From positions 1 to 20,091 of IMG/VR virus record IMGVR_UViG_3300017782_000312: DNA of 20,091 nucleotides; one strand, written 5' to 3'. Below are positions 3,668-9,747 of the stretch, piece by piece. The number at the start of each line of letters is the position of its first letter. The stretch's first letter is position 1. The position numbers and the translations under genes were made by a program. Origin of the DNA: a virus. The notes below the pieces were generated by a model that did no database searches, had not been told where the DNA came from, and was given only the letters and a program-made list of their open reading frames with translations.

Positions 3668-4099
3668 ATGACAGTAGATTTACAACTAATAAAATTGACA
3701 GTAGAGCGTTATTTTGGATTTAATTTAAATGTAAGATGCAGAGAGCGACATTTAGTAGATGCTAGAAAAATCTATTTTTCACTATGTAGAGATTTTACCA
3801 AAAGCAGTTTGATGCTAATAGGTAGATCAATGGATAGAGATCACGCTACAGCTTTGCACAATATTAGAAGTTGCAAGGATTTAAGGAAAACAGATCCAGA
3901 ATTTAATGAGAAATACATAGCTTTGTACAGGCGGCTAAGTATGTTTAAATCAGACTCCTGGAAATTTAAGGCATACAACGCTCCTAAAGTAATTCATCCA
4001 GGTAGATTTAGACAGTTAGGATATGGCAAAACGAAATCCATTCGAAAAGTATTTAACCAAAGAGGACCGACTCCAAAACAGCGTTATGAATTACATTAA
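3668..4099 (+). CDS. DnaA domain IV-like DNA-binding protein
   Basis: 143 residues. Residues about 10-70 match the C-terminal DNA-binding domain of DnaA: RCRERHLVDARKIYFSL aligns with the basic-loop/helix region, and IGRSMDRDHATALHNI with the DnaA signature (usually GrDHtTVlha). The AAA+ domain of full DnaA is absent. The protein could bind DnaA-box-like sites to help open a phage origin, compete with host DnaA, or act as a regulator. The basic C-terminal 30 residues are encoded by DNA that also encodes the start of the VRR-NUC protein. It sits 5 bases after the exonuclease gene, within the replication operon. Confidence 0.75.
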   Translation: MTVDLQLIKLTVERYFGFNLNVRCRERHLVDARKIYFSLCRDFTKSSLMLIGRSMDRDHATALHNIRSCKDLRKTDPEFNEKYIALYRRLSMFKSDSWKFKAYNAPKVIHPGRFRQLGYGKTKSIRKVFNQRGPTPKQRYELH

Positions 4100-4644: not shown

Positions 4645-5370
4645 ATGAAACCAAACTACTATGCAGTAATACCAGCGGAGGTTAGGTATAATGAGAAACT
4701 GACCGCCAACTCCAAATTACTTTATGGCGAACTAACCGCCCTAAGTAATAAAACAGGAGTCAGCTGGGCGCAAAATAAATACTTTGCTCAGTTATACTCT
4801 GTTGATTCTAGAACTGTATCTAGATGGATCAAACAGCTCCAGGAGGAGGGGTTTATAAAAATTAAAATGAAGTACGATAAACAAACCAAACAAGTCACTA
4901 AAAGACTCATAAAAATATCTACTGTAGGGGGTGGGGACAAAAATGTCCAGGGGGGACAAAAAGATCCCCAGGGTGGGGACAAAAATGTCCAGGATAATAT
5001 AGATATACATAATAGTAATAATAATACAAGAAATAATACCGCCACTTTTAAAAAAGTGTCAGATTTCAATGAGAAGTATCTTTTAGCCTATGAGCATATA
5101 GTTAAATTATTCCACGAAAGGAATATCCCAAAAACTACTAAACAAAAAGTAGAATGGTTAAATGTTATTAGATTGTGCGAGGAAAAAGACAAAGTAAAAC
5201 CTCAGCAGCTTTGGTGGATCTGTAATGAAGTTAGAAAGGATAGTTTCTGGGCAAAAAATTTTCTCACACTACTAAAGCTCAGAAAATCTAAAGATGGAGT
5301 AATGTATTTAAATAGATACATAGGAATTTTTGGAAATGAGCAATTTGATATTTTAGGTTCTGATAATTAA
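4645..5370 (+). CDS. Winged-helix replication initiator protein
   Basis: 241 residues. The N-terminal 80 residues are a winged helix of the kind found in phage replication initiators: YYAVIPAEVRYNEKLTANSK, WAQNKYFAQLYSVDSRTVSR and WIKQLQEEGFI. A low-complexity linker follows (residues 96-130) containing three 7-residue repeats (GGDKNVQ, GGQKDPQ, GGDKNVQ) and an Asn-rich stretch. The C-terminal 100 residues form a helical domain of the DnaD/helicase-loader kind by position. This layout resembles lambda O: DNA binding at the N-terminus, helicase contact at the C-terminus, and DNA repeats between them inside the gene. The primase-helicase gene follows after 32 bases. Expected role: bind the iterons at 4930-4992 and load the helicase. 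Confidence 0.82.
   Translation: MKPNYYAVIPAEVRYNEKLTANSKLLYGELTALSNKTGVSWAQNKYFAQLYSVDSRTVSRWIKQLQEEGFIKIKMKYDKQTKQVTKRLIKISTVGGGDKNVQGGQKDPQGGDKNVQDNIDIHNSNNNTRNNTATFKKVSDFNEKYLLAYEHIVKLFHERNIPKTTKQKVEWLNVIRLCEEKDKVKPQQLWWICNEVRKDSFWAKNFLTLLKLRKSKDGVMYLNRYIGIFGNEQFDILGSDN
4927..5040. other. Candidate phage replication origin
   Basis: The iteron array (4930-4992) is followed at once by about 48 bases that are nearly all A/T (4993-5040, with TAATATAGATATAC and ATAATAGTAATAATAATAC), a plausible DNA-unwinding element. Iterons plus an AT-rich tract inside the initiator gene is the known arrangement of the lambda origin in gene O. Origin function is inferred from this architecture. Confidence 0.6.
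4930..4992. repeat. Three 21-bp direct repeats (iterons)
   Basis: Three consecutive 21-bp units start at 4930, 4951 and 4972. Units 1 and 3 are identical; unit 2 is divergent. All three contain GGGGACAAAAA, at 4933, 4952 and 4975. Units 1 and 3 carry a small inverted repeat GGACA-AAAA-TGTCC; unit 2 carries GGGGA and TCCCC arms. The period is exactly seven codons, so the array is translated in frame as the initiator's linker. G-runs here are unusual for this AT-rich genome. Confidence 0.9.
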
Positions 5371-5402: not shown

Positions 5403-7082
5403 ATGATTAACGAATTTTTAAATATTGGTATTACTCCTAGGGGAAACGCCATAGAGCAAAAGGTAATCTGTCCTAAATGCTCACACACTAGAAAAAACAA
5501 AAAAGATCCTTGCCTATCTATAAACATAGAAAAAGGCGTTTATAACTGCCATAACTGTGGCTGGTCTGGAAATGTACAATTCAAAGAAAAAAAGGAATTT
5601 GTAAAACCTCCAGAGGCTAGAACAGAGTTATCAGATAGGACTATATCTTGGTTTAACAAACGAGGTATTTCTGAGGCTACCTTAGCTCATTGGAATGTAG
5701 GGGAGTCAGTAGAATACTTTCCCCAGGTTCAAAAGAAACGCAAAGCAATCAATTTTAATTATTACAGAGAGGGCGAACTCATCAACTGTAAATATCGAGA
5801 TGCTGAGAAAAACTTTAAAATGGTATCTGGAGCTGAGTTAATATTCTATGGCTTAGATAACATAGCTACTATGGAAAAAATCTACATAGTAGAGGGCGAA
5901 ATGGATGCTCTATCACTACACGAGGCTGGTATATATTCTGTATGCTCAGTACCTAATGGCGCATCTAAAGGAAACCAAAGGCTAGATTATTTAGATAACT
6001 GCTGGGAGTTTTTTAAAGACAAAAAAGAGATAGTTCTCTGTACTGACAACGATCAGCCAGGTTTAGCTCTTAGAAACGAACTAGCCAGGAGGTTTGGTCA
6101 ATACCGCTGTAAGTATATCGAATTTGGCGATTATAAGGATGCTAACGAGGTTTTAACTGAAAAAGGCGCTGAGGTACTTAGAACAGTTTTAAAGACCGCT
6201 AAACACTTTCCACTAGAGGGAGTCGTAAATATTGATGATATTTGGAAAGATGTTTTAAACTATAATGATTATGGTATTAAAAATTACAGCATTGCTTTGG
6301 GTGATAGCGATGATTATTTTAAGGTCGATTTTGAGGGATCTTGGACTGTAGTCACAGGAATACCAAACTCTGGTAAATCCGATGTAGTCGATCAAATAGC
6401 TTGTAATATGGCGGTTAAGTATGGGCATAGGACTGCTTTCTTTGCTCCAGAGTCATTTCCTTATGAGGGACATATAAAACGCCTGGCTAATAAGTTAAAT
6501 GAGAGAAACTGCTCTAATGAGGAATTAAATAAAACTAAAAATTTTATAGAGGAGCATTTCTATTTTATAAAGATTGACCTGGATAATCTAACTCTAGATG
6601 GTATCCTAGATGCTTTTAGAGATTTAGTATTTCAAAAGGGGGTTAATTTATTAGTAATTGATCCCTGGAATATGCTGGACCATTCAGCGCAGCGTGATCA
6701 TTCCTATGTAGGTTTAATGCTTTCTAAAATTACCCAGTTTTGTCAGCAGACAAAGACTCATTTATTCCTAGTTGCACACCCTAGAAAAATGGAATCTAAT
6801 GACAATGGTAATTACAAAGTACCTACTCCCTATGATATTTCTGGATCAAGTGACTTTTTTAATAAAGCCTTTAACTGTATCACAGTATTTAGAAGTCTAG
6901 GCGAAATGACTCAATTTAAATCAGATGCTGTCCAGATACATATCCAGAAAGTAAAACGTAAAGAGAATGGACAACAGGGTAGCTTTACAGTAGCTCCAGA
7001 CTTTAAAGATGGCGGAGTATATAAGACAATAGATGAGAAAAAACAAAGATTCACAGTAGTTAGGGACCAAGTACCTTTTTAG
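5403..7082 (+). CDS. Bifunctional DNA primase-helicase
   Basis: 559 residues with the T7 gp4/Twinkle domain order. A zinc-binding domain has Cys23, Cys26, Cys49 and Cys52 (CPKC and CHNC). The TOPRIM primase core has IVEGEMDAL with Glu164 and Asp168, and CTDNDQPG with Asp215 and Asp217. A DnaB-like helicase has Walker A TGIPNSGKS (318-326), Walker B LLVIDPWN (416-423) and the VAHPRKM segment downstream. It would unwind the phage fork and make primers. The length matches the family and all key residues are present. The ATG at 5403 follows the A-rich AACAAACAAACAACAAACCAA leader. The upstream initiator probably loads it. No DNA polymerase gene is in the window, so the phage either uses the host enzyme or encodes one elsewhere. 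Confidence 0.93.
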   Translation: MINEFLNIGITPRGNAIEQKVICPKCSHTRKNKKDPCLSINIEKGVYNCHNCGWSGNVQFKEKKEFVKPPEARTELSDRTISWFNKRGISEATLAHWNVGESVEYFPQVQKKRKAINFNYYREGELINCKYRDAEKNFKMVSGAELIFYGLDNIATMEKIYIVEGEMDALSLHEAGIYSVCSVPNGASKGNQRLDYLDNCWEFFKDKKEIVLCTDNDQPGLALRNELARRFGQYRCKYIEFGDYKDANEVLTEKGAEVLRTVLKTAKHFPLEGVVNIDDIWKDVLNYNDYGIKNYSIALGDSDDYFKVDFEGSWTVVTGIPNSGKSDVVDQIACNMAVKYGHRTAFFAPESFPYEGHIKRLANKLNERNCSNEELNKTKNFIEEHFYFIKIDLDNLTLDGILDAFRDLVFQKGVNLLVIDPWNMLDHSAQRDHSYVGLMLSKITQFCQQTKTHLFLVAHPRKMESNDNGNYKVPTPYDISGSSDFFNKAFNCITVFRSLGEMTQFKSDAVQIHIQKVKRKENGQQGSFTVAPDFKDGGVYKTIDEKKQRFTVVRDQVPF

Positions 7083-8613: not shown

Positions 8614-9747
8614 ATGGCAAACAAAAAGGTAAACATTTCGGCTATAAAGCCAAATGAGGAAAATCCACGTTTTATAACTGACTCAAAGTTTAAAAAACTG
8701 GTAAAATCAATTAAAGAATTTCCAGAAATGCTAGAAACTCGCCCATTAGTAGTGGATGAGGATATGGTGGTACTAGGCGGAAATATGCGCCTCAAAGCAT
8801 TAAAATCAGCTGGAGTTTTTGAGGTTCCTGTACATCAAATTAAAGGATGGACAGAGGACCAGAAAAAAGAATTTATTATAAAAGATAACTTAGGTTATGG
8901 AGAGTGGGACTGGGATATAGTTGCTAATGATTGGGATTTAGATAAACTTACTGATTGGGGTTTAGATTTACCAGATTTTCCACAGCTTGAACCAGAGGCA
9001 GAGGAGGATGATTATGAGGAGCCAGATGATCTGCAAGTGGATGTAGTATTGGGCGATTTAATAGAGATTGGAGAGCATAGATTATTATGTGGTGATTCTA
9101 CAGATTCAGATCAAGTTGCTAAACTAATGGATGGAAAAAAAGCTGATATGGTTTTTACTGATCCGCCTTATAATGTATCCTTTAATGGTAGAAGTGGAAA
9201 GTTTGATGTAATAAAAAATGATAATTTAGCTGAGAGTGATTTTGAAAATTTAATTAATGGATTTGTTTCTATATTAAACTTGTTAAATCCAAAAAGCTAC
9301 TATGTATGGTGTAACTGGAAGTTTTATAGCATATTACAATCCAAATTAGAATTTAAGGCTTGTATCGTTTGGGCAAAAAATGTTTTTGGATTAGGACAGG
9401 GATATAGGCACCAACACGAATTTTGCCTTTTTAATGGTAAACTCGATGATGGCATTAAAAACGAAAGTGATTTATGGGAAATAAAAAAGGATTCTAATTA
9501 TATGCACCCTACACAAAAACCAACAGAGTTGGCATCTAGAGCATTTAAAAACCACAAAAAAAGTAAAAATATTGTTGATTTATTTTGTGGCTCTGGCTCT
9601 ACAATGGTAGCAGCTCATCAGCTTGATAGAATTTGCTATGGTATGGAACTTGATCCTAAATATTGTCAAGTTATAATAGATAGGATGCAAAAATTAGATT
9701 CTACTTTAGAAATCAAAATAAACGGAAAAGAATATAAAAACCTATAA
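8614..9747 (+). CDS. ParB-like domain fused to DNA methyltransferase
   Basis: 377 residues. Residues 5-75 are a ParB/Srx-like N-terminal domain (NPRFITDSKFKKLVKSI; VVLGGNMRLKALKSAG at 52-67). After an acidic linker (about 125-140) comes a beta-class amino-methyltransferase. The catalytic DPPY motif (183-186) precedes the SAM-binding FCGSGST motif (324-330), with HPTQKP (298-303) between them, which is the N6-adenine/N4-cytosine order. This fusion is common in phages. It would methylate phage DNA, probably as protection against host restriction; the ParB part may add DNA binding. The ATG at 8614 follows GCAAACAAT. From about 9160 the DNA appears somewhat more AT-rich than the N-terminal half. 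It is the last gene before the early/late boundary. Confidence 0.9.
   Translation: MANKKVNISAIKPNEENPRFITDSKFKKLVKSIKEFPEMLETRPLVVDEDMVVLGGNMRLKALKSAGVFEVPVHQIKGWTEDQKKEFIIKDNLGYGEWDWDIVANDWDLDKLTDWGLDLPDFPQLEPEAEEDDYEEPDDLQVDVVLGDLIEIGEHRLLCGDSTDSDQVAKLMDGKKADMVFTDPPYNVSFNGRSGKFDVIKNDNLAESDFENLINGFVSILNLLNPKSYYVWCNWKFYSILQSKLEFKACIVWAKNVFGLGQGYRHQHEFCLFNGKLDDGIKNESDLWEIKKDSNYMHPTQKPTELASRAFKNHKKSKNIVDLFCGSGSTMVAAHQLDRICYGMELDPKYCQVIIDRMQKLDSTLEIKINGKEYKNL

Follow-up and report, generated by a model that had tools for sequence, protein, structure and literature searches.

The viral DNA analysed here (IMG/VR record IMGVR_UViG_3300017782_000312, positions 1 to 20,091; hereafter the window) carries three iterons and an adjoining A/T-rich tract inside an initiator gene. 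These elements are very probably (we estimate 0.87) the phage's replication origin, which would be bound by the initiator in whose gene it lies; that protein would then recruit the helicase. The layout of this locus (Table 1), its conservation across phyla, selection at the level of DNA, covariation between protein residues and iteron bases, and the homology of the C-terminal domain to lambda O were each established by computation; experiments on this phage or close relatives were not found in the open-access literature. The design of an origin within its initiator gene is already known from lambda ori in gene O, RepA_N plasmids and pPR9. What is new is its breadth across relatives and a rule relating residues to bases, with the caveat that our literature basis is open-access and an earlier description of the rule is possible.

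Table 1. Features of the initiator locus, in window coordinates
Feature	Position	Strand	Basis
Initiator gene, 241 aa: winged helix, disordered linker with putative origin, C-terminal helical domain	4645..5370	+	HTH_36, PHROGs, AlphaFold2 model
Winged-helix DNA-binding domain codons (residues 1-91)	4645..4917	+	AlphaFold2 model
Predicted recognition helix codons (residues 55-67)	4807..4845	+	Model; covariation with iteron bases
Predicted specificity residues	R56 4810-4812; R60 4822-4824	+	Covariation
Disordered linker codons (residues 94-135)	4924..5049	+	pLDDT < 50; coincides with iterons and A/T tract
Iteron array	4929..4993	+	TRF, repeat search, motif count
Iteron 1	4934..4949	.	GGGACA-AAAA-TGTCCA, half-site GGGACA
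Iteron 2, degenerate	4953..4968	.	GGGACA-AAAA-GATCCC; GGGGA/TCCCC arms at 4952-4969
Iteron 3	4976..4991	.	Same sequence as iteron 1; 2 bp short of A/T tract
A/T tract, proposed DNA unwinding element	4994..5039	.	87% A/T
C-terminal helical domain	5056..5358	+	Model; homology to lambda O
Primase-helicase gene, presumed recruitment target	5403..7082	+	Toprim_2, AAA_25, DnaB_C; phrog_239 E 4.7e-88

The N-terminal domain of the initiator matches HTH_36 (PF13730; E 7.8e-11, 42 bits against a cutoff of 25), and the protein matches the replication initiation families phrog_19658, phrog_270 and phrog_428. Its AlphaFold2 model (mean pLDDT 73) features a winged helix comprising helices at residues 11-14, 21-32, 44-50 and 55-67 and wing strands at 71-78 and 83-91. 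At the other end of the protein, residues 168-217 align with residues 217-266 of lambda O (hhalign E 1e-6, BLASTP 3e-5), and the C-terminal domain alone matches the O-like families phrog_391, phrog_2357 and phrog_277. A first-pass annotation of this DNA had placed the repeats inside a winged-helix initiator gene just upstream of a primase-helicase; the HTH_36 match, the PHROGs and the model agree with the former, and a Toprim/DnaB-C gene does follow. Its description of the locus as lambda-like is partly literal, given the homology of the C-terminal domain to its lambda O counterpart, but the N-terminal domain belongs to PF13730 and not to PF04492. Neither the RepA_N (PF06970) nor the Phage_rep_O (PF04492) profile matched the window protein at E<=0.1, and a PDB sequence search returned weak MarR-type matches only. 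By structure, Foldseek placed the RepA_N initiators 4pt7, 4pql and 5kbj at ranks 7, 14 and 18 (probability 0.99-1) among MarR proteins. The presence of RepA_N initiators in this list speaks for the origin reading; the weakness of the matches (E about 0.05) and a fold shared with MarR-type repressors speak against it.

The best matches of the primase-helicase lie mostly in Cellulophaga, Tenacibaculum and Flavobacterium phages and those of the terminase in Bacteroides and Phocaeicola phages, which supports a predicted host within Bacteroidota. Upstream of the initiator, a small gene at 3668-4099 encodes a stand-alone DnaA domain IV (Bac_DnaA_C E 4.2e-11; motif DRDHATALHNIRSC); DnaA boxes show no excess in the window (20 vs 28 expected). 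Further downstream, the gene at 8614-9747 encodes an N6/N4 DNA methyltransferase (PF01555, residues 178-354), in which the ~170 residues ahead of the PF01555 domain resemble a ParB-type domain by eye. Rfam and tRNA scans gave no match.

Within the initiator gene, TRF detects a 21-bp array at 4929-4993 (score 84), and a repeat search finds copies starting at 4929, 4950 and 4971, the first and third identical and the second 70% alike. When up to three mismatches are allowed, GGGGACAAAAATGTCC occurs at three sites in the 20-kb window, all within the array, where dinucleotide shuffles predict 0.11. Three tandem 21-bp units, two of them identical, had been reported in the first-pass annotation; the copy number and identity stand, but the even spacing does not, as the centres of the palindrome-aligned iterons lie 19 and 23 bp apart. 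The 21-bp period belongs to the peptide register only (GGDKNVQ/GGQKDPQ/GGDKNVQ), and the iterons occupy codon phases 1, 2 and 1, the frame of the middle one differing from that of the outer two. The A/T tract said to follow the repeats is real, if slightly generously worded as 'nearly pure', and its A/T content falls in the top 1.4% of 46-nt stretches in the window. Iterons and tract both lie in the linker codons between the winged helix and the C-terminal domain, and are found nowhere else in the window. As single-stranded DNA the array folds better than shuffles (z -3.9), which is expected of palindromes, and no conclusion rests on it.

Relatives of the initiator were drawn from viral contigs, genome contigs and annotated phages, giving a non-redundant set of 147 with N-domain identity of at most 92%. 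Their linkers were scanned with an array finder that seeks 16-bp sites with 6-bp arms and an A-rich 4-bp centre and uses no protein information. Arrays scoring >=8 were detected in 69% of the 147 relatives; for dinucleotide shuffles the figure is 2%, and for downstream regions of equal length 3.6%. The 31% of relatives under the cutoff are partly accounted for by the strictness of the finder. Iteron spacings are mostly 22, 23 or 24 bp. A tract start was called in 97 arrays, and in 79 of these a gap of 0-2 bp separates the A/T tract from the final iteron. Thus the comparison that the first-pass annotation had recommended bears it out: across phyla, relatives carry repeats at the same linker despite differing sequence. 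In the tracts of many relatives, e.g. L006 and L127, one motif, TACAAGTATTAATA, recurs, at times as tandem copies with a 15-bp period; TACAAGTATTAA (<=1 mismatch) is present in 36 of 106 tracts, its exact copies always in one codon phase. On two genome contigs, L240 and L248, the initiator frame stops inside the second iteron, the A/T tract runs on outside the frame, and no readable C-terminal domain lies downstream; the second iteron of L248 has 8-bp arms (AATCACAA-TAGG-TTGTGATT). These may be decayed copies.

The N-domain of the window initiator is 51-55% identical to those of Leuconostoc phage LLC-1, Lactobacillus phages iLp1308 and CL1, and Butyrivibrio phage Ceridwen, Bacillota phages whose C-terminal regions and downstream replication genes differ from those of the window. 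Since these parts differ while the N-domain is common, the N-domain and origin look like an exchangeable module. An N-domain common to Bacillota phages and a C-domain homologous to lambda O argue for inheritance or exchange rather than convergence, contrary to the earlier suggestion that the Bacteroidota phage reached this design independently. Aureibacter tunicatorum plasmid pAT5 (L499), a Bacteroidota plasmid record, also encodes an initiator with the same N-domain, and its linker DNA contains, by eye, GGGG/CCCC-flanked A-rich repeats.

For the 102 clear arrays, each of 92 protein columns was compared with each of 6 half-site positions by mutual information. The signal is dominated by residues 54-63, in the predicted recognition helix; among the 92 x 6 pairs, residue 60 and position 5 score highest (z 27.8), followed by residue 56 and position 3 (z 16.8). 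Where residue 60 is Arg, half-site position 5 is C in 48/48 arrays, compared with 0/54 for other residues, and Lys or Arg at residue 56 accompanies G3 in 42/43 arrays, compared with 11/59 otherwise. The window obeys this rule, with R60, R56 and the half-site GGGACA. Clustering at 90, 80, 70 and 60% identity (98, 85, 57 and 20 sequences) leaves the residue-60 split without exception, with p 6e-6 for the 20 sequences at 60%. Among weak arrays held out of the analysis it is weaker (11/17 vs 3/28, p 5e-4), as expected if some of these are mis-called. Nearest pairs that differ at residue 60 also differ at base 5; the closest, L062 and L035, are 78% identical outside the helix and have Asn with GTCATA and Arg with GGGACA, respectively; L058 likewise combines Asn60 with the half-site GTCATA. 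Parsimony requires 19-21 changes of residue 60, but the domain is short and its tree poorly supported, with only 1 of 19 independent switches on well-supported branches, which makes their true number uncertain; a tree-based sign test was dropped for the same reason in favour of the clustering thresholds and nearest pairs. The covariation of recognition helix and iteron supports the earlier proposal that the N-terminal domain reads the repeats; for the origin reading, the pPR9 minireplicon provides a published precedent (PMC5703833).

The A/T tracts of these arrays carry a further signature, in their codons. Asn is encoded by AAT 592 times and AAC 12 times within the tracts (98% AAT), vs 957 and 416 times in the remaining codons of the genes that contain them (70%), and ATC encodes 1 of 197 Ile residues within the tracts vs 277 of 1399 elsewhere in those genes. 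The A/T richness of the tract is therefore held by codon choice, and this is also the case in G+C-richer genes.

Comparison with known systems places these features in context. In lambda, as in the window, iteron arms converge on an A-tract between DNA-binding and C-terminal domains and beside an A/T-rich stretch; the four lambda iterons also lie in several codon frames (0,2,2,1), and the two C-terminal domains are homologous. The lambda iteron sequence is unlike the window's, the lambda O N-domain belongs to PF04492 (E 5.7e-36), and lambda encodes the loader P downstream, whereas in the window the next gene is the primase-helicase itself. Among RepA_N replicons, the winged-helix NTD of pSK41 Rep binds four boxes in the middle of rep, the central linker, which is encoded by the origin, is dispensable, and the CTD binds the primase DnaG (reviewed in PMC5703833); iterons of the RepA_N type are semi-palindromic and converge on a poly-A tract (PMC7145576). 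The mid-rep origin, semi-palindromes converging on poly-A, and separate CTD recruitment module of pSK41 and pTZ2162 all resemble the window (PMC5703833, PMC7145576), but these are plasmid replicons, whereas the window is from a phage, its C-domain is lambda-O-like, and its similarity to RepA_N is weak and at the fold level only. In pPR9, a phage-like PF13730 domain, together with its own origin, takes the place of a ~500-bp segment encoding the NTD and origin. The pPR9 minireplicon is capable of autonomous replication, which among HTH_36 initiators the literature documents for pPR9 only, and it is compatible with pSK41 (PMC5703833). According to the published description, this pPR9/pUSA03 hybrid initiator shares the Pfam family of the window N-domain (PMC5703833), here joined to a pSK41-type CTD and not a lambda-O-like one; a plasmid search for hybrids of this type returned phage-like plasmids and distant matches only. 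The initiator gene of lactococcal phage Tuc2009 is annotated in its record as 'contains origin of replication', but its product belongs to other PHROG families than the window's. TP901-1 and Tuc2009 were considered as same-family controls and rejected, since their initiators match mostly different PHROG families, and serve as precedents only. Overall, the window initiator would work like the lambda, RepA_N and pPR9 systems but groups with HTH_36 initiators.

These precedents bear on whether the repeats could instead serve the winged-helix protein as operators for transcriptional control of its own operon. Such a role would suit the palindromic form of the iterons and a fold near MarR-type repressors; it fits poorly with sites in mid-gene, away from a promoter, beside an A/T tract held by codon choice, and with a protein that carries an O-like C-domain, and the pPR9-type and RepA_N precedents are origins. 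We consider it very unlikely.

A different concern is that the site may be an origin of limited use, e.g. for early theta replication or a prophage-plasmid phase, with bulk replication starting elsewhere or by recombination. Many phages switch replication mode late, the window contains an exonuclease VIII-like gene, and some relatives of the initiator sit on plasmid-like records. Against this, neither the window nor its nearest longer relative (33.6 kb, initiator 92% identical) contains a second array of the iteron sequence, and in that relative the array is likewise restricted to the initiator gene. GC skew is positive nearly throughout both sequences and has no turning point; it tracks the coding strand and is thus uninformative on the origin. 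We judge an auxiliary or stage-specific role very improbable.

Finally, 70 of the 102 clear arrays distribute their iterons over two or more codon frames, and 145 of 205 spacings are not divisible by 3; the occupation of several frames indicates selection on DNA rather than peptide. That the DNA repeat is a by-product of a repeat of seven residues in a flexible linker rich in Asn, as the 7-residue periodicity of the window peptide and the predicted disorder might suggest, is ruled out by this mixing of frames and leaves us with negligible doubt, the more so as the bases track a recognition-helix residue and the tract favours AAT.

For the origin reading, we propose that copies of the initiator bind each semi-palindromic iteron via the N-terminal winged helix. 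R60 of the recognition helix probably recognises the C:G pair at position 5 of the half-site, and R56 probably the G at its position 3. When the initiator assembles on the three A-tract-centred sites, it would strain and open the A/T tract, which begins 1-2 bp past the last iteron. The lambda-O-like C-domain may then recruit the primase-helicase encoded by the next gene, whereupon theta replication would start.

On balance, we favour the broader view that HTH_36 initiators, found in phages of at least Bacteroidota and Bacillota with relatives in genome records assigned to other phyla, belong to a single family of self-contained origin cassettes, whose specificity would be set by a code, chiefly of residue 60 for base 5 and residue 56 for base 3, and would have switched many times. 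Among phages known only from metagenomes, most have origins that are unmapped. Because initiator and binding site reside in one gene, each genome gives a matched pair, and the ~100 pairs gathered here yield a residue-to-base rule that is testable by a simple binding assay. If true, replicon specificity would be predictable from sequence alone, and the rule would indicate which phages and plasmids have a replication specificity in common or compete for it.
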